DNA of 64,000 bases. Origin: Longimicrobium sp. Its GTDB lineage: Bacteria; Gemmatimonadota; Gemmatimonadetes; Longimicrobiales; Longimicrobiaceae. Of this stretch, positions 17,094 to 44,433 are shown in pieces. The notes under the pieces are model-generated. The model had not been told where the DNA came from. It did no database searches and saw only the letters and a list, made by a program, of their open reading frames with translations. Location: NCBI GenBank assembly GCA_036389795.1, contig DASVWD010000115.1, positions 27,387-91,386 of the forward strand, read 5' to 3'. Within the stretch, counting starts at the first letter, position 1, and each line of letters opens with the position of its first letter. The translations under genes were made by a program, and so were the position numbers.

Positions 17094-17103
17094 GAGGTGT
17101 CTC

Positions 17104-25828: not shown

Positions 25829-25868
25829 CGCTTCTGGTGCGTTAAGCTGTCGTGCGCGCGTGCGCGAG

Positions 25869-25900
25869 CGCCGGCCCTTCCCGCGAGGGACGGGCCGGCG
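25869..25900 (-). promoter_or_regulatory. Leader hairpin upstream of carB
   Basis: CGCCGGCCC and GGGCCGGCG enclose an inner TCCC-GCGA-GGGA stem, 41-72 bp before the carB start. The same hairpin is kept in the repeated copies at about 28998, 32249, 36718 (partly) and 39182. It may terminate the former upstream intI transcript or act in the carB leader. Confidence 0.55.
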
Positions 25901-26343: not shown

Positions 26344-26443
26344 TACGTCCATTTATGTGGAGGACAAGAATACTACACTGCGAGGCGGGAGGTGCGGTAT
26401 CGGCGGATACGCTGGGGTGCGCAGTCTACATACGATATTAGGC
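26344..26443 (+). other. attI-like segment 1
   Basis: The stretch ends in ATTAGGC (crossover GTTRRRY-like) and shares TACGTCCATTT, a GATA-GGCTG-type block and GTGCGCAGT-TACATACGAT with the segments ending at 32597 and 39964. It directly precedes the DUF4157 cassette. A cassette promoter is expected here but is not resolved. Confidence 0.6.
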
Positions 26444-26475
26444 AGCGCTGCTGCAACAAAAAATGGAGATGGAGC

Positions 26476-28374
26476 ATGCAAACCTTTGCACAAAAACAGA
26501 ATCAACCTAAAAAACCAGTATCCTCCCGCCTTGCTCGGCCTGACACGGCAGCGTCCAAAACACATCAGGCGGCATCTCCTCACCTACTCTTGCAGCTCGC
26601 ACTCGGTAGTCTGACAGTGCAGCGGATGCCGCGGACTCATGCCGAAGAACTCGAAGCCGGATTGAGCGGTACGGCATCACCTCACTTTGGGCACGATTGT
26701 ACCCGCCCTCCCATACATCTTCCTGCAGCAGGAGCAATACAGACGAAATTAGCGATCAACAAGCCGGGAGACGAATACGAGCAGGAAGCAGACCGCGTCT
26801 CCGAACAGGTAATGCATACGCCCATGACGCAGCAACAGCGGCCTTGTGCCTGTGGTAGAGGGTGCCCCGAATGCCGCACCGAGCAACCTGACCATGAAGA
26901 TGTGAGCTTGCAGACGAAGCACGTGGGAACGAGCGAGGTCGGACAGTCCGAAATACCGTCCATCGTCCACGAAGTAGTTCGCTCGCCTGGAGAGGCTCTG
27001 GAACCCGCATCCCGCAACTTTATGGAATCGTACTTCGGGCACGACTTCAGCGCAGTACGCGTGCACACCGGCAGCGAGGCGGCAGAGGCGGCTCGTGTGG
27101 TTCAGGCTAAGGCGTTCACCGTCAATCCAAACATTGTGTTCGGTCACAGCGAATTCGCGCCCGGTACAACGGAGGGGAGGCGGCTCATGGCGCATGAGCT
27201 CGCTCACGTGATCCAGCAGCGGTCAAACCCCATGCTTGCAGGCCGTGTAGTGCAGCGTCAGCGATCCGCACTTGAAGGAAGTACAAGCCAGGAAGAGCGC
27301 GGGAAGCTGCGGGTGCTTACCCTCGAATCTGTAACAAAACTCTCACCCAATGAGATAAGGGGGGAATTCAAGACGAAGGAAAAAGGAAATATTCCGGCCG
27401 ATGATATTAAGTTTGGCCCTGGTATCGCCGAGGGTATTAAACAAGGATTGCAGAATATCGCGGCGGAGTTTTTCTCCGACAAGTCTTTTACCTTTAACAC
27501 TGTTACGAATGTACCGTTGAACTTGAAAGCTGTCGGCGGCGTTGACGGTGTGTACCGATTCACGCTTGTCGAGCGAAAGAGCAATCCCAAGAGACAGCTT
27601 ATCATCGAGCAGGTGTCCGCCACTCCGTCTGGAGATCCGAGCAAGATCGATGTCGCGAAAGCTACAAAGCGCTTTGAGAACTTTGAGTTCGCTCTGGGTT
27701 CCGGCTTTGGAAGTGAGGATGACAAGAAGCTTCTGTTTGCTGCGCTGGCTCGCGTGCCGGACTCCATTTTAAAACGTGTCAGAGGCCTAAAGTTCGAGAA
27801 AAAACCGGAAAGTGTGGGCGAGAAGGACGAAGCCGGTAAATATGATCCCAACACACATACAATCACCCTGTACGCAAGCTCGCTCAAGAAGCTCATGAAC
27901 AGCATTGATACCAGCGGATCTGACTGGTTCACGCAGACTGTCGCACACGAGGTCGGACATGCCCTGGACTACGAGTCGTTTACGACAGCCAGGGTAAAGC
28001 GTGATGCGCTCACCAAGCAGTTGAAAGATGCGCGGCTTGAGGCGCGGCGGGTGGCTACCCCTGCGGGTGACGAGAAAGCACAGGCCGAGAAGGAGAAGAA
28101 AGATCAGCAGGAGATCGATCGGCTTGAAAAGGCACTAGCTCAGGCAGAGTCAGATTCTGGTAAAGCCCTGAACCTGGACCCAATGAAGGGCGGCGGCGGA
28201 CGTTCGCAAAGCACGGAGTTCGCCAAAGCCAGAGGAAAAGCGATCTCCACTTATGGAGGGAAGAGCGATGTTGAAAACTTCGCAGAACTTTCTGCGCTTT
28301 TTATCCTTGATCCCGACTCGCTGAAATTGCTTCGACCAGACGCGTACAAGTATTTCTCCGACACATTCAAGTAG
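26476..28374 (+). CDS. DUF4157 protein with C-terminal HEVGH metallopeptidase (first cassette)
   Basis: This 632-residue protein starts MQTFAQKQNQPKKP, almost the same leader as the gene at 20548. It has KPGDEYEQEADRVSEQVM, a Cys cluster (CACGRGCPEC), then DUF4157 with LEPASRNFMESYFGHDFSAV and HELAH at 240-244. The unique C-terminal region of about 380 residues ends with a second zinc motif, VAHEVGHALDYESF (H491), and a charged helical insert. GC content and codon use are much lower than in neighbours, so it looks acquired. It is the first gene after attI-like segment 1 and is followed by an attC. An injected or secreted protease toxin is a plausible but unproven role. Confidence 0.8.
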   Translation: MQTFAQKQNQPKKPVSSRLARPDTAASKTHQAASPHLLLQLALGSLTVQRMPRTHAEELEAGLSGTASPHFGHDCTRPPIHLPAAGAIQTKLAINKPGDEYEQEADRVSEQVMHTPMTQQQRPCACGRGCPECRTEQPDHEDVSLQTKHVGTSEVGQSEIPSIVHEVVRSPGEALEPASRNFMESYFGHDFSAVRVHTGSEAAEAARVVQAKAFTVNPNIVFGHSEFAPGTTEGRRLMAHELAHVIQQRSNPMLAGRVVQRQRSALEGSTSQEERGKLRVLTLESVTKLSPNEIRGEFKTKEKGNIPADDIKFGPGIAEGIKQGLQNIAAEFFSDKSFTFNTVTNVPLNLKAVGGVDGVYRFTLVERKSNPKRQLIIEQVSATPSGDPSKIDVAKATKRFENFEFALGSGFGSEDDKKLLFAALARVPDSILKRVRGLKFEKKPESVGEKDEAGKYDPNTHTITLYASSLKKLMNSIDTSGSDWFTQTVAHEVGHALDYESFTTARVKRDALTKQLKDARLEARRVATPAGDEKAQAEKEKKDQQEIDRLEKALAQAESDSGKALNLDPMKGGGGRSQSTEFAKARGKAISTYGGKSDVENFAELSALFILDPDSLKLLRPDAYKYFSDTFK

Positions 28375-28557
28375 CTCGAACGCGAATCACGCTTCAGCTT
28401 TCGTTCGCCCCACCCCGCACGATCCCTTCTGCCACAGAGAGGCTGCGTACTTGGAACGGAGAGCGGGACAGATGTTCGTGTCGCAGCGACGCAGATGGCT
28501 ATAAGGTCGGGACATTCCCACACCTGACCTGCGGAGGAGACCCCGTTCCGCATCGCC

Positions 28558-28666
28558 GTCTAACAAACGGTTCGACCGGAGCCGCGCCAGCGAATTTGTA
28601 TCTTTCTCTGACTGTTACATGCGCTGCCCGGTCAATCAAGGCGTTCTATGAGAGCGATTGTTAGGG
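28558..28666 (+). other. attC site 1
   Basis: GTCTAAC at the left and GTTAGGG at the right enclose 95 bases with partial complementarity (GCGCC / GGCGT-type arms). The sequence is unlike the resident attC type, consistent with a cassette of foreign origin. A strong hairpin (28667-28701) follows. Confidence 0.65.
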
Positions 28667-28727
28667 CGCGTCACCCAGCAGGGTTTCTGCCGGGCGACGC
28701 GTACTTCGTCCAGCATCTGTGCGCGCT

Positions 28728-28952
28728 CTACGCCACTGACGGGGTAATCGGCTCGATGTAGGTGGCGTCGGCCAGGTCGGGGTCGGTCATGATCGTGGCC
28801 GGGTTGGAGTTGACCAGGATCACCCGGTACCCCTCCTCGCGCAGCGCCCGCACGGCCTGCGTCCCCGAGTAGTCGAACTCGGCCGCCTGCCCGATCACGA
28901 TGGGCCCGCTGCCGAGGATCAGGATGCTCTGGAGGTCGTCTCGCCTGGGCAT
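28728..28952 (-). pseudogene. carB 5'-end copy 1
   Basis: A 74-codon frame whose first 70 codons (to EPIT) encode exactly the same protein as carB, followed by four unrelated codons and a stop. The DNA differs from native carB at five sites, all synonymous (for example AAC-TCC against AAC-AGC). The leader and hairpin upstream are also conserved to about 29103. It cannot give a functional synthase. Confidence 0.85.
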
Positions 28953-29103
28953 CGCTTCCGGTGTGCTGCTGTAAGCTGTCGTGCGTGCGTGCGCGAGCGC
29001 CGGCCCTTCCCGCGAGGGACGGCCGGCGCCGGCGGACACGAAGATATCAGTCGGGGCGGGAATCTACGCGGCCGCGGGCGTCGGGGAAAGATTCCCATGA
29101 CCT

Positions 29104-29245
29104 TCAGGTGTCCAGCGGCCTGCGCACGCCGCGGGCCCCCGCGGTTCAGCACGTGGGTGTAGATCATCGTCGCCCGCACGTCCGCGTGGCCGAGCAGTTC
29201 CTGCACGGTGCGGATGTCGTATCCGTCCTCAAGGTGCTCTTTCCA
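29104..29245 (-). pseudogene. intI: 3' remnant of an integron integrase (intI)
   Basis: The - strand encodes [18 protein letters not shown] and [12 protein letters not shown], the C-terminal catalytic region of integron-type tyrosine recombinases with the His and Tyr residues. After NRGG one extra base shifts the frame; corrected, it reads GVRRPLDT and stops at 29106-29104, the usual IntI C-terminus. Everything before HLEDG is lost. It lies directly behind the carB leader copy. Confidence 0.85.
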
Positions 29246-29387
29246 GCGAGTTGTTCGGAATGTACACTTAGGGGCTATGAAACGAGCCCCCACTGTTCGT
29301 ACGGACGCTCACGGAAGAGGAGCACTGGCAGCAGCCAGGGTGGGTGAAGCATTCAGGCTCTTTAGCGAGATCGGTAGGCCCGAGGGC

Positions 29388-29485
29388 GCCTGACAATCGG
29401 CTGCAGGGAATGTGGGGCCGTCCATGTTTCGCCGAACGACAGGCTTGCGCGCCGGCCCCGCACCCTGACCCTTGTGTCGTTAGCG
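29388..29485 (+). other. attC site 2 (resident type)
   Basis: 98 bp from GCCTGAC to GTTAGCG. The arms CTGCAGGG...GGGGCCG and CGGCCCC...CCCTTGTG are complementary, and the central loop contains ATGTTTCGCCGAACGACAGG. It matches the sites at 30114, 33956 and 37507. Confidence 0.85.
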
Positions 29486-29619
29486 TCCCCGTACATGCTT
29501 CGGGCGCACCAACGTGACGGGGCCGGCATAAACGTCCGTGCTCGATGCTACCCGACCGCCACGCCAAATGCCATTTGCCGGCGATGGTGTGAACCTCCAC
29601 GACCGACGCACACTACGCT

Positions 29620-30096
29620 ATGCCAGGGAAGAAGGCTGCGACGAAGAAAGTACAGGCGCCACGCGCAAAACCCGCAGGTCGCGCGACGACACGACGTTGC
29701 GGGCTGTGTGGCAAGACGTCGAACCTTACCAGGACGGAATGTTGCGACCAGTGGATCTGCGACGACGAGGGGAACTACAGGATGTTCTCTTTCTCGCGCA
29801 ACAGCTGCTCGCGCAACCACCGGCGCTACACACTGTGCGGGTATCATTTCAACGAGGGTCACGCCGGCGATTGGCGTGAATGCAAGGAGTGTCGCGACGC
29901 GTTCGAAACCGAGATGTATGTCTACTATGGGACGAACGAATACAATTTCGTGAAGCTCGAGAACCCGCCGTCCTTCGAACCGACGCTGTGTGCGAAGTGC
30001 TCAACGAGAATCGACCTGGGAGAGGGCGGATACTCCCAGAAGGCGGGCAAGTACTACTGTCTGAGTTGCAGCGGAATCGACTTTTCGCGTATGTAG
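29620..30096 (+). CDS. Cassette gene: Cys-rich zinc-binding protein
   Basis: This 158-residue protein has a basic N-terminus (PGKKAATKKVQAPRAKPAG). It then has at least three Cys pairs: CGLCGKTSN, ECCDQWICDDE, CKEC and CAKCSTRIDLGEGGY...YYCLSC. A His cluster (RNHRRYTLCGYHFNEGH) could add ligands. The treble-clef-like arrangement suggests structural zinc and possibly nucleic-acid or protein binding. It is enclosed by attC sites at 29388 and 30114, with the stop 17 bp before the second, a typical cassette layout. No known family is named. Confidence 0.75.
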   Translation: MPGKKAATKKVQAPRAKPAGRATTRRCGLCGKTSNLTRTECCDQWICDDEGNYRMFSFSRNSCSRNHRRYTLCGYHFNEGHAGDWRECKECRDAFETEMYVYYGTNEYNFVKLENPPSFEPTLCAKCSTRIDLGEGGYSQKAGKYYCLSCSGIDFSRM

Positions 30097-30113
30097 AACC
30101 CGTGCGCCGGGCC

Positions 30114-30212
30114 GCCTGACAATCGACTGCAAGGGATGCGGGGCCGTCCATGATTTCGCCGACGACAGGCTTGCGCGCCGGCCCCGCACCCCTGACCCTT
30201 GTGTCGTTCGGC
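30114..30212 (+). other. attC site 3 (resident type)
   Basis: 99 bp from GCCTGAC to GTTCGGC. The stem halves CTGCAAGGG-ATGCGGGGCCG and CGGCCCCGCACCCC-CCCTTGTG are nearly perfect complements with the usual extrahelical bases. Confidence 0.88.
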
Positions 30213-30251
30213 GGCTCGCACCCTGTGTTCCCTCGCATCCCGCGCGGAGCG

Positions 30252-30554
30252 ATGTCCTCTATTGTTCACCGGTTGAGGCTTCGGCGCGTACTCCCGTGGG
30301 CCACGATTGGATTCGCACTTGGGTGCTCTGATGGGCGGCCCGGGGCGGACGAGGCGAGAGCTTGGTTTGAGAGCCGCTACCCTGGAGCGTCACTCTCCGA
30401 CGTAGAGATGTCCGAGGATGAGGTAGTGGCGCGGAGCTACCGGTTCGAGTACCGCTCCAGCGATGGTCGAACCGGGCAGCTGGCTGTGCAGTTCATGCAG
30501 GATAGCTCTGGGAACTGGGCTCCGACGCCAGCGGCTCCCGCACAGCTATCCTAG
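30252..30554 (+). CDS. Cassette gene: small lipoprotein
   Basis: This 100-residue protein starts at ATG 30252 and has a signal with a lipobox-like LGCSDG (Cys about 25). The mature region EARAWFESRYPGASLSDVEMSEDEVVARSYRFEYRSS resembles small envelope proteins with a PepSY-like strand-helix pattern, but no family is certain. It lies 40 bp after attC site 3. The expected attC after the gene is poorly preserved: only a GTTAGGC half at 30586-30592 is clear. Confidence 0.65.
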   Translation: MSSIVHRLRLRRVLPWATIGFALGCSDGRPGADEARAWFESRYPGASLSDVEMSEDEVVARSYRFEYRSSDGRTGQLAVQFMQDSSGNWAPTPAAPAQLS

Positions 30555-30585
30555 CACTCGTGCCCACCCCGCCGCCGAACCTGGT

Positions 30586-30592
30586 GTTAGGC
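30586..30592 (+). other. Half attC (right side only)
   Basis: GTTAGGC between two + strand cassette genes, preceded by CCGAACCTGGT. A left partner (TCCTAGC at about 30549) would give an unusually short site, so this is called a degenerate attC. Confidence 0.4.
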
Positions 30593-30607
30593 CGCCACAC
30601 ACCACCT

Positions 30608-31117
30608 ATGGGCGAGCGACCGAGTAGCATCCCGGCCGTGATCGACGCGCTCCGCCGGGCGCCCGAGATCGTCGTGCCCCTCGTACGCGAGGTGCCGCCG
30701 GCGATCCTGCGGCGGCGGCCGGCCCCGCACCGCTGGTCCGCCCACGAGCACGCGTGTCACCTCGCCTACGTGCACGCGCTCTTCTTCGACCGGCTCGACT
30801 ACATGCTCCGCGACCCGGCGCCCGTGATCCGGCCCTACCTGCCGGGCGAGCAGGACGCCGACGACCTGCTGCTCCGCATGGACCTCGAGGCGGCGCTCGC
30901 GTGCTTCGCCGCCGACCGGGCGCGCCTGGTGGCCCGCCTGGAGGCGCTCGGCCCCGCGGACTGGGCGCGCGAGGCCGAGCACGGGGAGTACCGCACGTAC
31001 TCCGTGTTCATCATGTTCCGGCACCTGGCACTGCACGACTTTCTGCACGCGTACCGCATCGAGGAGCTCCTGCTGCGCCCGGACTGGGCCGCCGACGCCG
31101 ACGTGCCGACGGCCTAA
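30608..31117 (+). CDS. Cassette gene: DinB-family protein
   Basis: This 169-residue four-helix protein belongs to the DinB/DUF664-type metal-binding group. It has PHRWSAHEHACHLAYVHALFFDRLDY with one metal His pair, RPYLPGEQDADDLL, and a C-terminal FRHLALHDFLHAYRIEELL with the remaining His ligands. Relatives act as bacillithiol/mycothiol-linked transferases or unknown hydrolases. Its TAA stop codon lies inside the left end of attC site 4, a hallmark of cassette genes. ATG 30608 was preferred over an upstream frame crossing the half attC. Confidence 0.82.
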   Translation: MGERPSSIPAVIDALRRAPEIVVPLVREVPPAILRRRPAPHRWSAHEHACHLAYVHALFFDRLDYMLRDPAPVIRPYLPGEQDADDLLLRMDLEAALACFAADRARLVARLEALGPADWAREAEHGEYRTYSVFIMFRHLALHDFLHAYRIEELLLRPDWAADADVPTA

Positions 31118-31209
31118 CGAATCGTTGCAGCTGACGAAACGGGCCGACGCTGCGTGTGGCGCCCACGCCTCCGTCAGGCCCGTTTCGCAGCTGAACTCTG
31201 GCGTTCGCC
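31112..31209 (+). other. attC site 4
   Basis: 98 bp from GCCTAAC to GTTCGCC. The inner stem GCAGCTGACGAAACGGGCC / GGCCCGTTTCGCAGCTG is nearly perfect with one extrahelical base. It differs in sequence from the resident type, pointing to a different origin for the DinB cassette. Confidence 0.88.
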
Positions 31210-31225
31210 CGCGTCTCGCAGGGTA

Positions 31226-31689
31226 ATGAGAACTGGATTCCTGCTCCTCGCGCTCACCGCGGCATGTAGCCGCTCCGGGGTTGGGGCACCACAACCCACG
31301 CCCGCACCGCAGTTCGCCGCAACACGTGAGGCGCTCTGCACCCTTGATCCCGCGATGCCAGGGTGTCGGGGGCCCGTCCCAGACACCTTCCCCAACAGGT
31401 GGTATCTGCTCCAACGTCATTGGGAGATCGTGTCGCGGACGCGGGGTTCCGTCTGCATCGCAGATGCAGTCGAACTGCGTTTCAGACCTGGCGTTGCGCT
31501 GGCGGAAAAGCAAGCGATCATCGACTCCATCGGCGTCTGGAGGGAGGCTACATGGGCTCAGTTTATATAGTGCGCATCCCGAGCGATGGGACGACTGGGC
31601 CGCTGAGTCGCGCGCTTGAGTACGCCCGCGGGCAGCCACAGGTGCAATACATCACGCAGACGTGTTACAGCCAGATGGAGCGAGCTTAG
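31226..31689 (+). pseudogene. Cassette gene: frameshifted lipoprotein with peptidase-inhibitor-like region
   Basis: The first frame (31226-31570) gives a lipoprotein signal (LLLALTAACSRSG) and VELRFRPGVALAEKQAIIDSIG. The natural continuation EGGYMGSVYIVRIPSDGTTG, then LEYARGQPQVQYIT lies in another frame ending at 31689. One missing base near 31534-31537 explains the break. The combined sequence resembles the pro-domain/I9-like region found before subtilisin-type proteases, here without a protease. Confidence 0.65.
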
Positions 31690-31980
31690 CGGTGCCGCGG
31701 CAAACACCGATGAGCCGGTTACTTGCACTCGGCGGTGCGAGAGCCGGCGAACCAGTTGCTGCACCGATGACGCGCCAGGCGCGGCGCTAATCGGCCTCCT
31801 GCTGATGATCGGCGCGGTGGCGCTCGGCGTGAGGACCGCGCGGCGCAAGAGATAGCACCCACAGTCTCTGGCGCGGAGAGTGCCGCGTTGCGCGTGGTGT
31901 CGACGCCGAGCGCGCCGGTGCCGCGAATCACGGGACCGGGAGCCTACAGACTCTTCGCACACACGCCCTGGGCGTCCTCT
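31690..31980. other. Non-coding or relic stretch in the array
   Basis: No gene is supported. One + strand frame ends at 31855 with a hydrophobic helix and RRKR tail (GAALIGLLLMIGAVALG), perhaps the C-terminus of a lost membrane protein, but it has no plausible start. Confidence 0.35.
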
Positions 31981-32018
31981 CGCCTGACACGGCCTGCAGG
32001 GGATGTGCGGCCGGGCAT
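31981..32018 (+). other. Left half of a resident-type attC, truncated
   Basis: GCCTGACACGGCCTGCAGGG then GATGTGCGGCCG matches the left half of resident attC sites. The rest of the site is missing and the sequence passes, about 50 bp later, into carB copy 2. Confidence 0.65.
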
Positions 32019-32071
32019 CTTCGATCCTACCCTCAGAACAACAAGATCGCGAGAGTCGCTCCGTACCAGAT

Positions 32072-32203
32072 TCACCCGGTACCCCTCCTCGCGCAGGGCG
32101 CGCACGCCTGCGTCCCCGAGTAGTCGAACCCGGCCGCCTGCCCGATCACGATGGGCCCGCTGCCGAGGATCAGGATGCTCTGGAGGTCGTCTCGCCTGGG
32201 CAT
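32072..32203 (-). pseudogene. carB 5'-end copy 2
   Basis: About 132 bp of the carB 5' end (MPRRDDLQ to GTQA) with one substitution (E to G in QAAEFDY) and a one-base deletion that shifts the frame after GTQA. The leader and its hairpin (32249-32280) are retained. It is non-functional. Confidence 0.85.
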
Positions 32204-32357
32204 CGCTTTGCTGGTGCCTGCGTAGGCTGTCGTGCGCGCGTGCGCGAGCGCCGGCCCTTCCCGCGAGGGACGGGCCGGCGCCGGCTCAATCACGGATCTG
32301 TGGTCGGGGCGGGAATCTACGCGGCCGGACGCCGTGGGGAAAGATGATCGTGAAGCG

Positions 32358-32436
32358 TCACAGGTCGAGCGGGCTCCGCACCCCGGCGGACGCGGATCTC
32401 GCAGCGGACGCGGCCCAGCAGCCTGGGTTCCGACAT
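32358..32436 (-). pseudogene. intI: intI relic: N-terminus joined to C-terminus
   Basis: The - strand starts ATG (32436) [11 protein letters not shown], which is typical of IntI starts. After a large deletion it reaches [12 protein letters not shown] (TGA at 32360-32358), a typical IntI end, in another frame. The short repeat GCGGACGCGG occurs at both sides of the junction (about 32384 and 32404), suggesting deletion between direct repeats. Confidence 0.8.
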
Positions 32437-32597
32437 TCGTCTTGATGGGGTGCGGTGTAGCGGCGTAATATCCTGCGGAGAGGGCAGGTGGCGGCTGTTA
32501 CGTCCATTTGCCCGGATCGCAAGAGTGCTGCGCTGCGCGTCGCGCGCCGCGTAGCTGCAGGATAGGCTGCGGTGCGCGGTTACCTATGATGTTAGGC
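32437..32597 (+). other. attI-like segment 2 (with intI promoter region)
   Basis: 161 bp between the intI ATG relic and GTTAGGC (32591-32597). It shares TTGAT-GGGTGCGG, TAATATCCTGCGG, CCATTTGCC-GGATCGC and the GATAGGCTGCG block with segment 4 (39801-39964). This is where attI and the cassette promoter lie in integrons. Confidence 0.7.
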
Positions 32598-32687
32598 CTA
32601 TCCCGACGAACTCGGGCGTATCATTTGCCTCTGTCTCCACCGGAGTGCCTGAGCCATTCGCCACCCGGTCGCCCGTAGGAGATGCTG

Positions 32688-33035
32688 ATGCGAGCGCCGC
32701 GATACAGGTTTCCGGATGAAGTCCGCGCTACGACCCGCACCATTGCTTCGCGCATGGTCGTCGACGGGTCCATTGCCCAAACGCCAGAACAGCTCGATGC
32801 CTGGATCTCCGAGCATCTCGAGGTCAGCAGGTCCCTGGAGAGGGGCGGGTACAGCACCAAGTTCACGTCGCATGATCTCTTTCCTCTGCTTCAGGTCTTC
32901 GTTGTGCAGGCGGGCGGTCCGGCTCCTCAGGCTGATGCACCCCCTCCTCCTTCGAAGCGTGGCCGGCTCGTGGGACTCGGGCTTGCTGCCCTCGCTCTTA
33001 TCTTGATCGCAATCGCGATTGTCGCACTCCGCTAG
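32688..33035 (+). CDS. Cassette gene: tail-anchored small protein
   Basis: This protein of about 115 residues has a soluble N-terminal part (RAPRYRFPDEVRATTRTIAS, LDAWISEHLEVSRSLERGGY), a proline linker (PAPQADAPPPP) and a C-terminal transmembrane helix (LVGLGLAALALILIAIAIVAL) with almost nothing after it. AGGAG at 32677-32681 favours ATG 32688 over ATG 32682. It sits directly after an intact-looking attI-like segment and is closed by a consensus attC, so it is probably the first cassette of that unit. Function is unknown. Confidence 0.7.
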   Translation: MRAPRYRFPDEVRATTRTIASRMVVDGSIAQTPEQLDAWISEHLEVSRSLERGGYSTKFTSHDLFPLLQVFVVQAGGPAPQADAPPPPSKRGRLVGLGLAALALILIAIAIVALR

Positions 33036-33084
33036 TGGGCCTCCGGTCTCGCACTCGGTCCATCTGTCTTGCGCCAAGCCCCCG

Positions 33085-33178
33085 GCCTAACCCCCGCTTG
33101 CAGGGGACACGGGGTCGTGCATCTTTTCCTGCGGAGAGTTTGGTGCGGCCCCGTGCCCCTGAAGCTTGTTCGTTAGGC
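33085..33178 (+). other. attC site 5 (perfect core sites)
   Basis: 94 bp from GCCTAAC to GTTAGGC, exact consensus at both ends. Inner stem GCTTGCAGGGG-CACGGGG / CCCCGTGCCCC-TGAAGC with an extrahelical base. Confidence 0.92.
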
Positions 33179-33234
33179 GGTCCGCCCAGGCGTCGGGATT
33201 AGCGGACGTTCCTTCAACCTGAGGATAAGCGTCA

Positions 33235-33879
33235 ATGGCACGACTGCTCGTTCGCGGCTTTTCGATCTCTCTCGATGGGTACGGCGCGGGTTCAAGTCAG
33301 TCGGTCGAGAATCCGCTCGGCGTCGGCGGAGAGGATTTGCATGACTGGTTGGTTCACACCCGCACCTTCAAACGCATGCAACGCCGCGAGGGTGGAGACA
33401 CGGGCATTGACGAGGACTTCGCAGCCCGCGGCTTTGCGAATATCGGAGCATGGATACTCGGTCGTAACATGTTCGGCCCCATACGCGGTCCCTGGCCTGA
33501 CGAGTCCTGGCGCGGCTGGTGGGGAGCGAATCCGCCTTATCACGCGCCTGTGTTCGTTCTGACGCACCACCCGCGGCCGCAACTTGAAATGGAAGGGGGG
33601 ACTGTCTTCCATTTCGTCACCGAAGGCATCGAAGTGGCGCTGGAGCGTGCCCGCGACGCGGCGGGTCCCCGGGACATTCGTCTCCTTGGTGGCGTCGCCA
33701 CCCTTCGCCAGTATTTGCAGGCCCGCTTAGTAGATGAAATGCATTTGGCCGTAGCACCGATCCTGCTCGGCTCGGGAGAGCACCTGCTTGCGGGACTCAA
33801 CCTTCCGGCGCTCGGCTACGCGTGCACGGAATACGTCCCGAGTGGGAAAGCGGGGCATTACGTCATTGCCCGAACCTGA
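33235..33879 (+). CDS. Cassette gene: RibD C-terminal / dihydrofolate-reductase-like protein
   Basis: This 214-residue protein begins LLVRGFSISLDGYGAG, the DHFR-fold first strand with the SLDGY motif of the RibD_C family. It has IGAWILGRNMFGPIRGPW, APVFVLTHHPR, GPRDIRLLGGVATLRQYL (nucleotide-binding GG) and a C-terminal DEMHLAVAPILLGSGEHL. Such stand-alone RibD_C proteins are NADPH-dependent reductases of unknown substrate. DHFR-type activities are well known in integron cassettes, but this is not a trimethoprim-resistance DHFR by family. It lies between attC sites 5 and 6. Confidence 0.85.
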   Translation: MARLLVRGFSISLDGYGAGSSQSVENPLGVGGEDLHDWLVHTRTFKRMQRREGGDTGIDEDFAARGFANIGAWILGRNMFGPIRGPWPDESWRGWWGANPPYHAPVFVLTHHPRPQLEMEGGTVFHFVTEGIEVALERARDAAGPRDIRLLGGVATLRQYLQARLVDEMHLAVAPILLGSGEHLLAGLNLPALGYACTEYVPSGKAGHYVIART

Positions 33880-33955
33880 GACCTGCGCTCCCTGGAGCAT
33901 TTGGCACGTGTGGGCCGCCTTGCCGGTGTGAGTTCATGTTCAACCGCAACGCCTC

Positions 33956-34057
33956 GCCTGACCACGCAGTGCAGGGGATGCGGGGCCGGCCATGTTCTCG
34001 AGCATTTTTCCGGGTTCGGAGCACCGGCCCCGCACCCCTGACCCCTATTTGTTAGAC
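33956..34057 (+). other. attC site 6 (resident type)
   Basis: 102 bp from GCCTGAC to GTTAGAC with GTGCAGGGGATGCGGGGCCG and CGGCCCCGCACCCC arms. The central loop is longer and different from sites 2 and 3. Confidence 0.85.
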
Positions 34058-34259
34058 CGCATAAGCCGCGATGTCCCTTTCTCAAGGGATCAAGAATCAA
34101 TTGATCTGATACATGCGGCACGTAAGACCGCGAGCTGCTCGCGCGAAGGGGTACGGCTGGCTGTTTCTACTGTAAGCAGATCTCTAACACCAATGAAATC
34201 ATGATTGGGCGACGGGCGTCAGATTTCAGCTACACTCGGACTCAAAGGACGATTCCGGC

Positions 34260-35831
34260 ATGATACGCCTGTCAGGATTGTACCGGTGCAGGGCGGAGCG
34301 GTCAGCCACCGTTCCCGTCCATGGGTCACGGCGAATCCGCGAAGCGTCGATATCTGCTGCGCGTGGCGCAGTCTTAACCCTGTTGCTCGTTACAGCGACG
34401 TGTCGTCATCTGCCGCCGTCCACAACGTCCGGCGACCTCGCGATCACCAACGTGACAGTGATCGACGTCACGCGCGGGACGCGGCTCGCTGCGCAAACGG
34501 TGCTCGTCGCCGGCACGCGGATCGTGATGGTGGGACCCGCCCGGTCGGTCGCCGTACCTGGCGGAGCGCGGGTGGTGGACGGCCGCGGCGCGTTCCTCGT
34601 CCCGGGGCTTTGGGACATGCACGTGCATTCCGGTGGCTACGACCATGGCCGTCGCTACCTGCCCGCACTACTCGCGCAAGGGATCACTGGCGTACGGGAT
34701 ATGGGCACGCCGCTCGAGGACGTGCTGCGGCTGCGCGCCGAGAGCCGGCGGCCGCCGTCAGACGACGAGCTCCCACTACCGCGGGTGGTCGTGGCGGGCC
34801 CCTTGCTGAACGGTCCACTCCCATTCCACACACCGCTCATCCTTTCCGTGTCAACCGCGCGCGAAGCGCGTGCCGCCGTGGATAGCCTCGTCTCGCGCGG
34901 TGTCGACTTCGTGAAGGTGCATGACGCGCTACCGCGCGCGGAGTACTTCGCCATCGCAGACGAGGCACGACGGCGCGGCATCGCATTCGCCGGCCACATC
35001 CCGCCGTCGATCACCGCGGACGAAGCGACACGCGCCGGCCAGCACAGCATCGAGCACCTGGGCGGTCGTTTCTACGGCGAACTGCTCGCCTGTTCCGACC
35101 GCGAGCAGGCGCTGCGCGCCGCTGTCGATACGATCGTCGCAGGCGCGCTGCGCGACATGCGCGCCGGACGCGCACCGGACGACGCGGCAGTCTTCCGGGC
35201 GACGCTCACGCGGCCGCTCGTCGAGAGTTTCAGCGCAACGCGCGAGTACACGCGCATTGGCACCATTGTCGCCGCGCGTCAGTGGGAGGTCCCGACGCTC
35301 ATATCGCAGCCGTTGCGCGACGCGCTCAGCGACGCGACACTGCGGCTAACGTCGGAGGACCGGCGGTGGGCCGACTCGCTTCTTGCGCTCCAGATGCGGC
35401 TCGTACGCGACATGCGGCGCGCCGGCGTGGGCCTCCTGGCAGGCACCGACCGCGACATTGCGCGCCCGGCACTCGCCGACGAGCTGACGCTGCTCGCGGC
35501 AGCGGGGCTCACTCCACTCGAGGTGTTGCGCGCGGCGACGCTCGACCCCGCGCTTTATCTTGCGGCGACCGATTCGCTAGGCGCTGTTGCACCCGGCAAG
35601 CTCGCGGACCTCGTGTTACTAGACGCGGACCCGCTGCGTGACATTGGCGCGATTCGCCGCGTGCGCGCCGTCGTGGCGAACGGGCGGCTGCTCGACGAGG
35701 TGGAGCGGCAGAGGCTCGTGCGGCGAGCGGCAGCGGGGCTCAGGACGCCCTTGACACTCGGTGGCATCTTCATGGATGAGCGTCTTTGGGAGGAGCCATT
35801 TCCGAGATGGTCCACTTCGGTGCGGCGGTAG
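34260..35831 (+). CDS. Cassette gene: exported amidohydrolase
   Basis: The protein has up to 523 residues; a signal or lipoprotein segment is seen at GAVLTLLLVTATCRHLPP, so the true start may be downstream of ATG 34260. The metal-dependent amidohydrolase fold carries DMHVH (H121, H123), the bridging Lys in FVKVHD (K219), His residues in FAGHIPPS and HSIEHLGG, and the Asp in LLAGTDRD (D397). A C-terminal PGKLADLVLLDADP closes the beta-sandwich. It should hydrolyse a C-N bond (imidazolonepropionase/prolidase-like group) outside the cytoplasm. It is very large for a cassette. A left-half attC follows 9 bp after its stop. Confidence 0.85.
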   Translation: MIRLSGLYRCRAERSATVPVHGSRRIREASISAARGAVLTLLLVTATCRHLPPSTTSGDLAITNVTVIDVTRGTRLAAQTVLVAGTRIVMVGPARSVAVPGGARVVDGRGAFLVPGLWDMHVHSGGYDHGRRYLPALLAQGITGVRDMGTPLEDVLRLRAESRRPPSDDELPLPRVVVAGPLLNGPLPFHTPLILSVSTAREARAAVDSLVSRGVDFVKVHDALPRAEYFAIADEARRRGIAFAGHIPPSITADEATRAGQHSIEHLGGRFYGELLACSDREQALRAAVDTIVAGALRDMRAGRAPDDAAVFRATLTRPLVESFSATREYTRIGTIVAARQWEVPTLISQPLRDALSDATLRLTSEDRRWADSLLALQMRLVRDMRRAGVGLLAGTDRDIARPALADELTLLAAAGLTPLEVLRAATLDPALYLAATDSLGAVAPGKLADLVLLDADPLRDIGAIRRVRAVVANGRLLDEVERQRLVRRAAAGLRTPLTLGGIFMDERLWEEPFPRWSTSVRR

Positions 35832-35840
35832 CCGGCAGCC

Positions 35841-36035
35841 GCCTGACAATCGGCTGCAGGAGATGCGGGGCTGAAGTCTACGCTCTCCCAGGTCGCCTTT
35901 CCTTCTATTGGGCCGCCAGCGGCTGCTTGGCCGTGTCGCACTGAGCATGCGAATTGGCGGAAGCGGGCGCGCCGCGGGCACCCTCCCTGGCCACGGCACT
36001 CGAGCGCGCCCGTCAGCTTCAACGCGTAGTTAGAC
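35841..36035 (+). other. Composite attC remnant
   Basis: The left half of a resident attC (GCCTGACAATCGGCTGCAGG, 35841-35860, then ATGCGGGGCTG) ends abruptly, and a right core GTTAGAC is found only at 36029-36035. The 195-bp distance is too long for one normal site. It is read as two broken sites or an insertion within one. Confidence 0.5.
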
Positions 36036-36086
36036 GCGCGGACTTCGCAGGATTGGCGTATATCATGAGGCACGGAGCTGGCGACG

Positions 36087-36482
36087 ATGGGTAAGTACGT
36101 GATCGGCCCAGATGTGGCTCTCCACCTCGCGGCTCTGGAGGCCGCGATCCCGGAAGAGCATCAGATGTTGGCTCCTACCCTGTTTCGCTCGCAGACGCTA
36201 TCGCTGCTCTATCGAGCGGTACGCCAGGGAGAGATAACCCGGAAGGATGCCGAGCGACGCCTCGAGTATGTGCGCGCTTTACGCATTCGACTGCTCGGCG
36301 ATCGCGTCCTTCAAGACGTGGCCTGGAGGATCGCCGAGAAGCTCGGGTGGGCCGACACGCTGCTTGCCGAGTACATCGCACTCACCAAACTTCAAGCGGA
36401 CGCGTTCATCACCCTCGACTCCGAGCTCGCTCACGCTGTAGAGGGCGTGGTCACGACTGCGGCCATCGACGTACTACGCTGA
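36087..36482 (+). CDS. Cassette gene: PIN-domain-like protein
   Basis: The protein has 131 residues with [12 protein letters not shown] at the start (first acidic residue of a PIN nuclease), then [23 protein letters not shown] and [17 protein letters not shown] with further acidic residues. PIN-domain ribonucleases are the toxins of VapBC systems, which are frequent in integrons. No antitoxin gene is adjacent. The GGAG site (36075) supports ATG 36087. No clear attC follows; carB copy 3 begins 50 bp later. Confidence 0.7.
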
Positions 36483-36532
36483 AGCGGCCGCAGAGCGTCG
36501 TTGCGGGATCCGGCTCGGCCATGCAATCCTCG

Positions 36533-36671
36533 TCAGGATCACCCGGCATCCCTCCTCGTGCAGCGCCCTGACGACCTGCGTCCCCGAGTAGTCGAGCTCG
36601 GCCGCCTGCCCGATCACGATGGGCCTGCTGCCGAGGATCAGGATGCTCTGGAGGTCGTCTCGCCTGGGCAT
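36533..36671 (-). pseudogene. carB 5'-end copy 3
   Basis: About 139 bp related to the carB 5' end, with several amino-acid changes ([10 protein letters not shown] in place of [23 protein letters not shown]). The frame then runs into unrelated sequence. The leader is only partly kept. It is the most diverged of the three carB coding copies. Confidence 0.8.
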
Positions 36672-36750
36672 CGCTTTAAAGTGCTGCGTAGGCTGTCGTC
36701 GTGCGCGCGGGCGCGAGCGCCGGCCCTTCCCCGCGAGGGACGGGCCGCAC

Positions 36751-36798
36751 TGCGTATCTGCGGCCATGCTGCGGCGCGCCGCCTACATAATGTCAGGC
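36751..36798 (+). other. attI-like segment 3 (partial)
   Basis: Only the last part (TGCGTATCTGCGG...TACATAATGTCAGGC) is present, directly behind the truncated carB leader copy. It precedes the DUF1801 cassette. Confidence 0.5.
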
Positions 36799-36875
36799 GC
36801 GCATGGTAGAATGACGCAGGTCCGCATTCGAACCGCGGCAAAGCTTCCACCCTGAGCCAGTACGAGGAGGTTCCT

Positions 36876-37343
36876 GTGAGCCCCAAGAAGGACACGCAGA
36901 AATCCGCCAAGAGCGCCACCGTGACCAACGAAAAGTCCCAGGGATTCACGGACGAAGAACGGGCTGCGATGAAGGAGCGCGCCCGGGAGCTGAAGGCGGA
37001 AGCGCGCCAGGCGGACGGGGAAGGCGCCGTGCTCGCGAAGATCGCCGAGATGCCGGAACCGGATCGCGCCATGGCCGAGCGGCTCCATGCCATCATCAAA
37101 GCCAGCGCGCCGGCCCTCGCGCCGAAAACCTGGTACGGGATGCCCGCGTATGCAAAGGACGGCAAGGTCGTCTGCTTCTTCCAGAGCGCGCAGAAGTTCA
37201 AATCGAGGTACGCGACGTTCGGCTTCAGCGACGAGGCGAACCTCGACGAAGGCGCCATGTGGCCGACCTCCTTCGCGCTGAAGGAGCTGACCGCCGCCGA
37301 AGAGGCGAGGATCGGCGCGCTCGTGAAGAAGGCGGTGAGCTGA
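36876..37343 (+). CDS. Cassette gene: DUF1801 domain protein
   Basis: This 155-residue protein starts at GTG 36876 behind GAGGAGG. The N-terminal 50 residues are a charged helix ([20 protein letters not shown]). The DUF1801 domain follows: [62 protein letters not shown] and a C-terminal [19 protein letters not shown]. Relatives include frataxin-like iron chaperones and proteins of unknown role. It lies between attI-like segment 3 and attC site 7. Confidence 0.85.
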
Positions 37344-37506
37344 GGACTGATCTTGCCACTGACCCCGTAAGAGAGATCTATGTGGCCGGTCCGCTGGGTG
37401 CGGGCCGCCACGGGACGCCCGATCCGCCGGTGCGCACCACCCTCGCACCCGGCGACGCACCACCATCGGTGCGCCTTCCGCTTCGGTGCGGAGCCGGCCG
37501 GCGCTC

Positions 37507-37604
37507 GCCTGACAATCGGCTGCAGGGGATGCGGGGCCGTCCATGATTGGCGGACGACAGGCTTGCGCGCCGGCCTCGCACCCCTGACCTTGGTGCCGTT
37601 GGAC
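37507..37604 (+). other. attC site 7 (resident type)
   Basis: 98 bp from GCCTGAC to GTTGGAC with the resident arms and loop (CCATGATTGGCGGACGACAGG). The 160 bp between the DUF1801 stop and this site holds no gene. Confidence 0.85.
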
Positions 37605-37643
37605 GCTTCCCATCGCAAAATACCTCGACCAAGGAGATGGGCC

Positions 37644-37811
37644 ATGGATGTTCGAGAGCGCGGAGAGCCGATCGGTGATGAGCGGGGTGACGTCCCCAAG
37701 TACCACATGGCCACCTGCCCCAACTGCGGCGGCCGAGGCTACATCTTCGACTCCATGGGGAACAGGTACGACTGCACACAGTGCGAAGCGTCGGGCCAGG
37801 TAGACGACTGA
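37644..37811 (+). CDS. Cassette gene: small zinc-ribbon protein
   Basis: This 55-residue protein carries two CxxC pairs, CPNCGGRGYIF and YDCTQCEASGQV, the DnaJ-type zinc-finger pattern CxxCxGxG. It is probably a single zinc-binding knuckle that mediates protein contacts. AAGGAG at 37631-37636 supports ATG 37644. It is flanked by attC sites 7 and 8, so it is a one-gene cassette. Confidence 0.75.
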   Translation: MDVRERGEPIGDERGDVPKYHMATCPNCGGRGYIFDSMGNRYDCTQCEASGQVDD

Positions 37812-37934
37812 CCGGTCAGGCCAATCGTACGAGGGGGAGCTCCTGGGGCGGGTGGCGGCGTCCGCCCCGTCGGGCCGATTTGCGCCCATGACGCAACCCT
37901 CCCCGCGTGGTTTACGCCCCTCGTTGCAACAAGC

Positions 37935-38023
37935 GCCCAACAACGGCATGCACCCGACCGCCCACACGACGGCTCTCATGCTCCGCGAGAGGCCTGGGCG
38001 GCGGGTGATGCGCGGCGTTGGGC
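37935..38023 (+). other. attC site 8
   Basis: 89 bp from GCCCAAC to GTTGGGC, perfect complements, with inner arms GGCATGCACCCG-CCGCC / GGCGG-CGGGTGATGCG. It is unlike the resident type. Confidence 0.88.
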
Positions 38024-38068
38024 CGCGGAAGAACGCCCCCCCCCAATCACCGCACATCGGAGATTCAC

Positions 38069-38455
38069 ATGAAGCGAGTCACTGGCATCGGCGGCATCTT
38101 TTTCAAGGCGAAGGATGCACCTGCGCTGCAGGCCTGGTACAAGGCTCATCTCGGCATCGATGTCCAGCCGTGGGGCGGTGCCGCGTTCGACTGGGTCGAC
38201 TCGGATGGCAAGCCCACGGGCGGAACGACCGCCTGGTTGGTTGCTTCGGAGGAAAGCGAGCAGTTTGCTCCGAGCAAAGCCTCGTTCATGGTCAACTACC
38301 GCGTTGAAGACCTCCACGCCCTGGTCGCGGCGCTCAAAGCGGAAGGCTGCAACGTCCTCGACAAGATCGATGACTCCGAGTACGGCAAGTTCGGATGGGT
38401 CATCGATCCTGAGGGAAACAAGGTCGAATTGTGGCAGCCACCTGCCGGTCAATGA
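38069..38455 (+). CDS. Cassette gene: VOC family protein
   Basis: This 128-residue protein has two vicinal-oxygen-chelate modules: VTGIGGIFFKAKDAPALQAW with YKAHLGID, and FMVNYRVEDLHALVAALKAEGCNV with FGWVIDPEGNKVELWQPP. Such proteins are often found in integrons and include resistance enzymes for bleomycin- or fosfomycin-like compounds; the ligand here is unknown. GGAG 38059-38062 precedes ATG 38069. No attC is visible after it. Confidence 0.85.
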   Translation: MKRVTGIGGIFFKAKDAPALQAWYKAHLGIDVQPWGGAAFDWVDSDGKPTGGTTAWLVASEESEQFAPSKASFMVNYRVEDLHALVAALKAEGCNVLDKIDDSEYGKFGWVIDPEGNKVELWQPPAGQ

Positions 38456-38798
38456 AACGCGCCCATGCTCCCCGCGGCAGTCTGACGACGGGCGTGTTCG
38501 TCGGAACCTGATGGAAGTCCAAGCTCGGGATCAGGGGCTGGCCGCGCAGGCGAACGCGGGTGTTCGGGCGAGGCGGGAATCCATGCGCTTACTTCGCTCG
38601 GAGGGAAGTCGGCGCGAGTGGCGGTGCCGCGACGGCGACACATGCAACCAGCCCGTGGGCGCGACCTGCGTCGCAACTGCGGATTCGCCGCAAACGCTGC
38701 AGGATGCGTGGATGCGGCAGCGATGACGAGACATATGGGCGCCTTTCTTGCGAATTACGACTGAAAAGTAGCTGTCACTCTTTCCGAAGGAGCCGCAC
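38456..38798. other. Non-coding region before the RiPP-like gene
   Basis: 343 bp without a supported gene or attC. The last 60 bp (GAATTACGACTGAAAAGTAG area) are AT-richer and probably hold the promoter of the peptide gene. AAGGAG at 38785-38790 is its ribosome binding site. Confidence 0.4.
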
Positions 38799-38990
38799 AT
38801 GCGCAAGCTGAAGCTGAATCTCGACCATCTGGCGGTGGAGTCGTTCACGCCCGAGTCGATACGCGGCGAAAGCGACGGCACCGTGCACGCGCACGCTCCC
38901 ACCAGGGGCGGGAACACCTGCGACAACTTCTCGTGCCAGGCGGGGTGCACCTTCCAGGAGTCCTGCTTCAACCCCTGCACGACGGGCTGA
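38799..38990 (+). CDS. RiPP-like precursor peptide with pinensin-type leader
   Basis: This 63-residue peptide starts MRKLKLNLDHLAVESF, the leader type I associate with pinensin-family lanthipeptides and similar Longimicrobium precursors. A spacer SDGTVHAHAPTRGG follows, ending in a possible GG-type cleavage. The core of about 25 residues has Cys and Ser/Thr: NTCDNFSCQAGCTFQESC, then FNPCTTG (five Cys). No lanthionine synthetase, protease or transporter is encoded nearby, so it would be an orphan precursor served in trans. A terminator follows at 39039. Confidence 0.75.
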   Translation: MRKLKLNLDHLAVESFTPESIRGESDGTVHAHAPTRGGNTCDNFSCQAGCTFQESCFNPCTTG

Positions 38991-39038
38991 ACGCGGCAAA
39001 CCGGACGTACGCAGAGCCGCGTACGAACGAAAGAGGGC

Positions 39039-39064
39039 GCGGAGGAAGCAAACCCCTTCTCCGC
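39039..39064 (+). terminator. Terminator after the RiPP-like gene
   Basis: GCGGAGGAAG and CTTCTCCGC form a 9-bp stem with one bulge around a CAAACCC loop, followed by GTCTTCGTCTGTTTT. It is 48 bp past the stop of the peptide gene. Confidence 0.6.
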
Positions 39065-39130
39065 GTCTTCGTCTGTTTTCCTCCCACGTCCACCGCGGAA
39101 CCCGCCCACCTCGCCCACCTCTCGGCCTTG

Positions 39131-39225
39131 CCTGGCACCCCTTCTGGTGTACTGCGTAAACTGTCGTGCGCACGTGCGCGAGCGCCGGCCCTTCCCGCCA
39201 GGGACGGGCGGCGCCGGCGGAAGTC
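39131..39225 (-). repeat. carB leader copy 4 (no carB coding part)
   Basis: CTTCTGGTG, CTGTCGTGCG and the whole leader hairpin (39182-39212) match the region upstream of carB. Just before it, TTGCCTGGCA replaces CGCCTGGGCAT, so the carB start codon is gone. Confidence 0.75.
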
Positions 39226-39245
39226 GAGAATGCTGGAGGCGGATC

Positions 39246-39773
39246 GTGGATCTCTGGGAGCGATATCTCTTCGAGCAGCACTCGAGGGAAACCCTGCAGG
39301 CATGGGCCCGCAAGCTCGGCGTGTTCCGATTCCGTCGAGCGCGGGGCGGCCACGCCAATGACGGCGACTCGCTCGACGTGGCGTTCAGCTACGAGACGGA
39401 GGAGCAGCTGTTGAGCTTCTTCCGCCATGTCGGCTTCCAGCCGGTGGTCCATTCGGCCGAGCCGCCGCGGCCGGTTCCCGGAAGGCCGTATCGACAGGAT
39501 GAATTCGCGGCCTTCCCGTCCATCATCCCGAATACGCGGTGGATCGAGCAGCCAGGCCATTGCACGCTGTCCGGCATCAAGGTCTTCATGTGGTGCGGAA
39601 ATCACAGGATCACCATCTCGGTCCACTCCGGCTATGACGTGACGGAAGAAGATGTCGAGAATGCAGCCCGACTCGAACTTCTCCTGAAGGCCCTGCCGTT
39701 CGAGCGCATCGAACCGCCCCAGGACAACAGGAATTGCATCTGTCCCAGGTATTACCCGGAGTTCTTCGCGTGA
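39246..39773 (+). CDS. Hypothetical protein in the integrase position of the last unit
   Basis: This 175-residue protein starts at GTG 39246 with GGAGG six bases upstream. It contains WERYLFEQHSRETLQAWARK, a charged DSLDVAFSYETEEQLLSFF, then FPSIIPNTRWIEQPGH, MWCGNHRITISVHSGYDVTEED and a C-terminal NRNCICPRYYPEFF. No known domain is recognised. It lies between the carB leader copy 4 and attI-like segment 4, where intI would be expected, but it reads in the opposite direction and shows no recombinase motif. Confidence 0.6.
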   Translation: MDLWERYLFEQHSRETLQAWARKLGVFRFRRARGGHANDGDSLDVAFSYETEEQLLSFFRHVGFQPVVHSAEPPRPVPGRPYRQDEFAAFPSIIPNTRWIEQPGHCTLSGIKVFMWCGNHRITISVHSGYDVTEEDVENAARLELLLKALPFERIEPPQDNRNCICPRYYPEFFA

Positions 39774-39800
39774 GTCGGAGTGCGGGGCCCGCTTCGAATC

Positions 39801-39964
39801 GACGTTCGCCTTGATCGGGTGCGGCGTGGCGCCCTAATATCCTGCGGGAAGGCAGAACGGTGTAGCTACGGCCCATTTGCCTGGATCGCGAGAGTGCGCG
39901 GCGCACCTTCGCGCGCCGCGTATCTGCGATAGGCTGCGATGTGCAGCCTGCCACGATGTCCGGG
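39801..39964 (+). other. attI-like segment 4
   Basis: 164 bp closely similar to segment 2: CGACGTTCGCCTTGAT, GGGTGCGG, TAATATCCTGCGG, GCCCATTTGCC-GGATCGCGAGAGTG, ATCTGCGATAGGCTGCG. It ends in GTCCGGG instead of GTTAGGC. The intI start codon has changed from ATG to ACG. Confidence 0.65.
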
Positions 39965-42642: not shown

Positions 42643-42651
42643 GGTGAGACC

Positions 42652-44389: not shown

Positions 44390-44433
44390 TACCGCTGCGG
44401 GAGCTTCGGGATCGAAGTCTCTGAACCGAATGT

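Follow-up and report, generated by a model that had tools for sequence, protein, structure and literature searches.

Displaced copies of the carB 5' end between genes next to carB in Longimicrobium sp. and its relatives: a possible record of successive insertions

The carB locus and the displaced 5' ends

This work concerns a row of genes beside carB, the gene of the large chain of carbamoyl phosphate synthase, in Longimicrobium sp. (GenBank assembly GCA_036389795.1, 7.5 Mb; G000 below). Pieces of the carB 5' end recur within this row, accompanied by remains of an integron. The window, i.e., the whole stretch of DNA analysed, comprises 64,000 nucleotides (nt) and is the terminal 64 kb of a 91-kb contig (DASVWD010000115.1, C115 of G000, the window's own genome). 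carB is an essential gene of pyrimidine and arginine biosynthesis. Its functional copy (22595..25828, minus strand) encodes 1077 amino acids (aa) and is preceded by a leader with a hairpin (25829..25963, minus strand), in which a -10 box at about 25933-25938 and a -35 box at about 25958-25963 were recognised by eye from conservation.

Four displaced copies, all on the minus strand and delimited by alignment, lie farther out. In copy 1, a carB 5' end of about 69 codons with an intact frame (28747..28952) is joined to a leader and promoter (28953..29090), the whole (28747-29090) being 91% identical to the functional carB block over 354 nt (E 2e-135). Copy 2 (32065..32343) consists of a frameshifted carB 5' end, leader and promoter, and copy 3 (36534..36747) of a 5' end and leader with the promoter lost. 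Copy 4 (39127..39221), the outermost and most reduced, is a leader with no more than about 12 nt of carB coding sequence. The Pfam domain CPSase_L_D1 was recognised on displaced copies. Aligned across the genomes having it, the repeated block includes about 70-210 nt of carB coding sequence, a leader with a GC-rich hairpin and a promoter with conserved -10 and -35 boxes (promoter boxes were judged by eye throughout); past -35 most sequences diverge. A search of Rfam with positions 22000-44000 of the window gave no match to a known RNA element for the leader at the gathering score. At the far end of the array, the right flank (42097..43872, plus strand) is formed by two genes that are common to the related genome G002, with 75-76% aa identity.

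Recurrence in related genomes

The family is represented in our collection by 21 genomes, one per species, and at least three of them (G004, G010 and G020) are metagenome bins. The carB loci of 19 family genomes besides the window, and of the outgroup G023, were fetched; G003 has no usable carB start. Thirteen family genomes with at least 2 kb of sequence upstream of carB were regarded as assessable (G000, G002, G004, G005, G006, G008, G009, G011, G013, G015, G016, G018 and G019), and G010, G012, G014 and G017 were left out due to upstream sequence that is too short. In G001, G007 and G020, the contig breaks off within carB (at codons 118, 118 and 83; L094, L095 and L104), as might happen in an assembly interrupted by repeated carB 5' ends. 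Gene calls in the relatives are based on open reading frames (ORFs).

Displaced carB 5' ends were found in 6 of the 13 assessable genomes, 14 copies in total: four in G000, three in G002, two each in G005, G008 and G009, and one in G015. The first five of these genomes belong to one genus and G015 to another. Thus, the serial accretion at the carB 5' end that the preliminary description of the window had proposed is borne out by repeated displaced copies in the window and five relatives. When the CarB N-terminus was compared with 146 genomes of the order, more than two matches were obtained only in G000, G002, G005, G008, G015 and G050, the extra match in the last being a second carB start on another contig; this search is not exhaustive, because it missed the copies of G009.

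In the relatives, a unit of the array is a promoter, a single gene or operon and the next displaced carB 5' end; the units are compact, about 0.3-1.7 kb in size, and mostly carry plus-strand genes. Both boundaries are present in ten units (of G002, G005, G008, G009 and G015): the cargo is on the plus strand in nine and on the minus strand in one, the second unit of G005. In the nine plus-strand units, the distances from the cargo stop codon to the displaced carB coding sequence or leader are 2, 14, 15, 18, 27, 35, 64, 74 and 108 nt. The cargo includes a TIR protein (G015), a HEC-02A/B pair (G009), a matrixin-like peptidase (G008) and several proteins without a Pfam match. Pfam named no recombinase in the 20 proteins of cargo and flanks that were scanned, a part of the ORFs; several of the 20 are matchless.

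On the right, a patatin-like gene is common to G004, G005, G006, G015 and G018, and G000 and G002 have in common a different pair of genes. Nearly empty sites occur as well: the distance from carB to the shared right-hand gene is 1.2 kb in G004 and 0.9 kb, with one small gene, in G018. These shared flanks and near-empty sites indicate a hotspot between carB and its fixed neighbour.

Breakpoints and decay of the copies

The left joints of the copies fall from -206 to about +7, i.e., in the carB coding sequence or leader. At a mismatch cost of 2, the left ends of the 12 copies with carB coding sequence were placed at -206, -161, -158, -149, -145, -140, -138, -125, -122, -116, -82 and -69, and none lies beyond 210 nt in a gene of 3.2 kb. 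The start codon ATG and the frame are kept in 5 of these 12 copies (G000_1, G000_3, G008_1, G008_2 and G002_1), and the other seven have an altered start codon, a stop or a frameshift. A promoter recognisable by eye is missing in 4 of all 14 copies. On the whole, the displaced copies look unselected. Since the in-frame copies start at different places (-206, -149, -145, -138 and -116), there is no fixed crossover core.

Relative age of the copies

The order of events can be read best from G005 and G006, two close genomes with 93% aa identity in the common patatin-like gene. In G006, carB and its promoter are followed by a small DUF3892-like gene; in G005, the same gene, now broken, stands behind two inserted units. 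G006 preserves the state preceding the two G005 insertions. When the passage from promoter into this gene in G006 was aligned with the three G005 blocks, the outer copy gave 104 matches of 124 with 22 gap columns, the functional promoter 88 of 109 with 52 gap columns and the inner copy 76 of 103 with 64. At 20 sites where G006 differs from the functional G005 block, the outer copy is G006-like in nine (including -113 and -86 in carB coding sequence), G005-like in six and neither in five, and the corresponding counts for the inner copy are 5, 11 and 4. From these alignments and site counts, we conclude that the outer G005 promoter stayed with the old neighbour. As to which 5' coding sequence in G005 is the older, the data lean to the outer copy without settling the matter.

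In a tree of 20 blocks, copies mostly group with the functional block of their own genome (support of 100 in G009, 99 in G015, 98 in G002, 96 for the inner copy of G005 and 45 in G008), the G000 copies are set apart from all others at 98, and the outer copy G005_2 falls with G006 at 60. Therefore, either several lineages built their arrays separately or homogenisation took place within lineages. In G008 and G005, identity to the functional block declines outward, from 98 to 91% and from 89 to 85%, respectively.

Integron pieces in the window

Pieces of an integron are scattered between the displaced carB ends of G000. Plus-strand attI copies, searched with the attI adjoining the intI fragment of contig C70 as a query, were found in unit 0, closest to carB (26330..26443, E 5e-13), unit 2 (32437..32598; match 32411-32598, E 1.6e-46), unit 3, where an attI end is left (36750..36798, E 3e-8), and unit 4 (39800..39959, E 1e-17); the same query gave no attI in unit 1, at 28.7 kb, at E 0.01. 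On the minus strand, unit 1 contains a C-terminal intI remnant with frame shifts near its end (29104..29266; tblastn match 29135-29263, E 9e-15; positions 262-305 of TIGR02249, 55.8 bits), and unit 2 an intI remnant with both ends kept and the middle missing (32358..32436, recognised by eye). One of the four attI copies in the window adjoins an intI remnant. The preliminary description had reported a block of carB 5' end, leader, intI and attI at 28.7, 32.1, 36.5 and 39.1 kb. The carB 5' ends or leaders do stand at all four places; intI is recognisable at two only, the 28.7-kb unit has no attI found, the 39.1-kb copy is almost devoid of coding sequence, and attI is present also in the carB-proximal unit (26.4 kb).

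In units 1 and 2, the intI stop codon lies 13 and 14 nt, respectively, from the displaced carB -35 box. This spacing, kept in both units, supports the earlier proposal that an integron once sat directly against carB; the functional carB promoter has a different neighbour. The ancestral order in the G000 lineage was likely carB, promoter, intI, attI and cassettes.

Seven plus-strand attC sites were located in the window. The site of the eCIS cassette (28560..28668) has a bottom-strand fold with a z-score of -2.4 and core boxes seen by eye. The other six were used to build the attC model R1, so that their own scores with it are not independent: about 29387..29487, the query site of a search of the assembly; about 30113..30214, 92% identical to the former; 31111..31211, 33084..33180 and 33955..34059, each with core boxes determined by eye; and 37506..37606, 89% identical to the query site. 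With the query taken at 29384-29485, 12 more matches were obtained in the assembly; those within the window are at 30110, at 37506 and, over 32 nt, near 35840. A half site was seen by eye near 31985. Outside the window, attC-type repeats occur on four contigs (C70, C85, C14 and C15). On C70, away from carB (L020, 6394-6909), there is a second integron locus with a frameshifted N-terminal part of intI, an adjoining attI and at least four attC-type repeats. In the whole G000 assembly, no match above the cut-off of the NCBIfam integron-integrase models was obtained.

A cassette gene with an uncertain start codon (26392..28374, plus strand) codes for a protein with an eCIS_core domain (E 8e-29), which has a C-terminal similarity to M90 peptidases below the cut-off. 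Further cassette proteins of the window are DinB-like, RibD-like, an amidohydrolase and glyoxalase-like. A short peptide gene at 38799-38990 has a threonine- and cysteine-rich end that by eye resembles lanthipeptide precursors, and a peptide similar to its product, also noticed by eye, is encoded in the G002 array (10912-11121).

In the other 12 assessable family genomes, a tblastn search of the fetched carB loci with full-length IntI gave no signal at E < 0.01. Likewise, R1 detected no attC in the carB loci of 13 relatives (L085-L093, L096, L098, L101 and L102), with the reservation that R1 derives from G000 alone and attC of other types could escape it. Thus, among the genomes assessed, intI next to carB is confined to the remnants in G000, which by a criterion of the preliminary description speaks against its reading outside this genome. 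In G002, G005, G008, G009 and G015, the displaced ends separate ordinary genes with no intI or attC detected, and the accretion of integron units, as the phenomenon had been presented, is not supported by them.

Origin of the array

In our opinion, the array arose by sequential displacement through recombination anchored in carB, so that displaced 5' ends came to separate other genes; we hold this to be somewhat probable. Incoming DNA would recombine within carB and introduce both a new gene and a fresh carB 5' end; the old 5' end would be pushed aside along with its old neighbour, and the process would then be repeated. The left joint would be made by RecA through homologous recombination in carB. 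The right joint, where the new gene ends and the old carB end sets in at codon 20-70, may first be made by end joining, and a gene provided with such a joint could then enter any carB 5' end by an ordinary double crossover. Delivery may proceed by natural transformation. Long duplications would be lost by recombination, leaving scars with less than about 210 nt of coding sequence, and the plus-strand bias of the cargo may reflect selection against read-through into carB. Several features expected of such displacement were observed: carB is continuous on the left, the copies start in carB coding sequence or leader, and the comparison of G005 with G006 shows that an old module was retained and moved outward along with the anchor fragment belonging to it. 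Homologues of ComEC and DprA are present. Recombination between strains, named in the preliminary description as a possible builder of the array, is supported as likely. Because the neighbour of carB in G000 was an integron, parts of its platform would have been multiplied as passengers, to decay afterwards. The integron was likely a captured passenger and not the driver, and the G000 row was likely built around an integron that is now broken.

A number of observations weigh against sequential displacement or are not easily fitted to it. ComEC and DprA homologues occur in the Escherichia coli controls, too. With one genome per species, no insertion was seen as it happened, and among the genomes compared no cargo gene has the same private joint in two of them. 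The computed breakpoints move with mismatch cost, from -206 to -255 in G000_1 and from -149 to -236 in G008_1. The concentration of 9 of the 12 left breakpoints within -110 to -165 (P 6e-4 against a uniform distribution over 0-210, in a bin chosen post hoc) is unpredicted by simple end joining and not fully explained. For the outer G005 copy, the site counts (nine against six) do not point one way only, and the support for its grouping with G006 is no more than 60. Similarity within a genome could also result from gene conversion, and there is no steady outward fall of identity in G000 (89, 87 and 88%) or G002 (88 and 94%). Finally, the cargo of one unit in ten is on the minus strand.

A bolder form of the carB-anchored reading, which we offer tentatively, is an integrase-free counterpart of an integron. 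Here, the carB 5' end would be a universal docking adapter, and each captured gene would be tailed by a worn carB 5' end; RecA alone would insert, stack and trade the cassettes between strains, the newest always adjoining carB. Insertion of cassettes at the right edge of an unmoved original promoter was considered as well and is disfavoured by the outer G005 copy running into the old neighbour, which is a leaning and not proof.

Among mechanisms other than displacement anchored in carB, site-specific integrative elements would use carB codons 40-55 as the core of an attachment site; on integration they would restore the 5' end, and later they would lose their recombinase, as do islands at prfC or transfer RNA (tRNA) genes. 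Restoration of the end of a target gene and tandem accretion are typical of such elements, and the clustering of left breakpoints noted above fits them; we regard them as unlikely, since the five in-frame copies start at scattered positions with no common core, no recombinase was named among the 20 scanned proteins, several of them without a Pfam match, and the units are as small as about 0.3-1.7 kb. Replication slippage could have duplicated the carB 5' end with its neighbour in tandem, after which the intervening genes would have been replaced. The direct repeats of 200-300 nt and the grouping of copies within genomes agree with this; however, the intervening genes differ within one genome, a second process is needed to swap each of them, and in G005 it is the outer promoter, and not the functional one, that leads into the old neighbour. 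This makes slippage rather improbable.

Integron-driven accretion, in which platforms would be inserted serially behind carB, either through IntI or through the transfer of whole integron units, is consistent with the attI copies in four units, the intI remnants in two, the attC-type repeats in the window and four other contigs and the second intI-attI-attC locus on C70. Against it, five relatives show the same displacement at carB with no intI or attC detected at the locus. Their IntI matches at E <= 1e-20 are one short C-terminal match each in G002, G005, G008 and G009, probably to XerC/D as in most genomes of the order, and separate pieces on other contigs in G015. The left joints in the window also fall outside intact attC cores, as judged by eye. 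IntI was therefore rejected as the general cause, and integron-driven accretion as a whole seems to us distinctly improbable. An assembly artefact, in which mixed strains were joined at carB, comes to mind in view of the metagenome bins in the sample and the three contigs that stop inside carB. Misassembly is nevertheless most improbable, because the copies have diverged by 2-15% from the functional block, stand in unique sequence and recur in six assemblies; moreover, right flanks are shared, and G009, an assembly of about 60 contigs, has two copies within a 99-kb contig.

Comparison with known systems

The array shares features with several known systems. In Rhs and contact-dependent inhibition (CDI) loci, displacement of C-terminal ends creates orphan tips, and a fragment of the anchor gene is left before each displaced module; this displacement and the orphan tips were reportedly described by Jackson in 2009 and Poole in 2011. 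An anchor-gene fragment precedes the displaced module at carB as well, but the ends concerned are 3' ends of toxin genes in those loci, whereas at carB it is the 5' end of an essential metabolic gene. Chromosomal integrons are likewise ordered gene arrays of mostly one direction, and the window has attI and attC; in contrast to them, no intact intI was found, neither intI nor attC was detected in the carB loci of the relatives, and the repeats are carB 5' ends. Tandem integrative elements at sites of the tRNA or prfC type also restore the target end and displace the old one, but at carB no recombinase was found among the proteins scanned, there is no fixed core, and a unit is one gene or operon.

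The closest parallel is provided by the effector-immunity modules of the type VI secretion system in Vibrio cholerae, where, according to the part of the paper used here, successive additive insertions are anchored in a conserved stretch, and old modules are pushed outward to leave arrays of leftovers (PMC5361080). Homology-facilitated illegitimate recombination was proposed there for type VI modules and, as the same paper states, for Rhs loci (PMC5361080). Anchored additive insertions, outward shift and leftovers are thus common to both cases, as far as the consulted part of that paper goes. As it presents them, the type VI modules are anchored in a weapon locus and leave immunity genes behind; the array described here is anchored in the carB 5' end, its insertions exchange the carB promoter, and its cargo bears no relation to the anchor. 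Small variable segments with one homologous anchor and one illegitimate joint, 10-18% of them flanked by direct repeats, have been reported (PMC2884548), and pneumococcal merodiploids demonstrate that duplications can arise by transformation (PMC3784515). In the portions of these two papers available to us, such cases are not serial at a single gene, and restoration of a 5' end is not described. The displacement process itself has therefore already been proposed elsewhere; its unusual features at carB are the anchor, the replacement of the promoter of an essential gene and the recurrence. In the titles and beginnings of abstracts searched, no description of arrays of displaced carB 5' ends was found.

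Repeats at other loci

Parts of three genomes were surveyed for direct repeats 60-600 bp long, with an identity of 78% or more and a spacing of 200-5000 bp. The 64-kb window has seven pairs, of which four are formed by the carB blocks; G000 outside the window gave 5 pairs in 317 kb, G009 (carB contig excluded) 18 in 800 kb and G042, from another family of the order, 1 in 400 kb. A few of these repeats look like single displaced gene ends away from carB, and no serial displacement at other genes was seen in the sample. We give no rate of gene-end scars, as carB itself escaped the simple gene caller and a likely case was classed by it as a paralogue.

A single displaced gene end at a locus other than carB is present at 16552-18127 of the window: the 3' end of a prolyl oligopeptidase gene (17899-20163, minus strand) is duplicated downstream at 16552-16757 with 87% identity, and a TPR protein gene (17104-17724, minus strand) and a small ORF stand between. 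This TPR protein and the cargo protein of the second carB unit of G005 share 46% identity. At L187 2986-4530 and L214 16701-17665, the 3' parts of UvrA-like and methyltransferase genes (90% and 92-96%) are repeated 0.8-1.4 kb downstream with an insert between. Positions 105-1000 of the window include two tandem segments of about 315 nt with 82.6% identity, perhaps a duplicated gene end. An inverted repeat of 60 nt, 75% complementary, is located at 44405-44532, and a repeat with similar words was noticed by eye near carB in G004.

Conclusions

Summarizing these data, it may be said that the carB locus would be a hotspot in which an essential biosynthetic gene, and not a tRNA gene or a weapon locus, serves as the repeated anchor of gene capture, with each event exchanging the carB promoter. 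The displaced ends form a record of past insertions that is readable from one genome. In this Longimicrobium sp., an integron was likely multiplied as a passenger of another process, and such copies can mislead surveys that count pieces of attI or intI. Since the cargo includes defence genes, the carB locus may be an integrase-less entry point for them.

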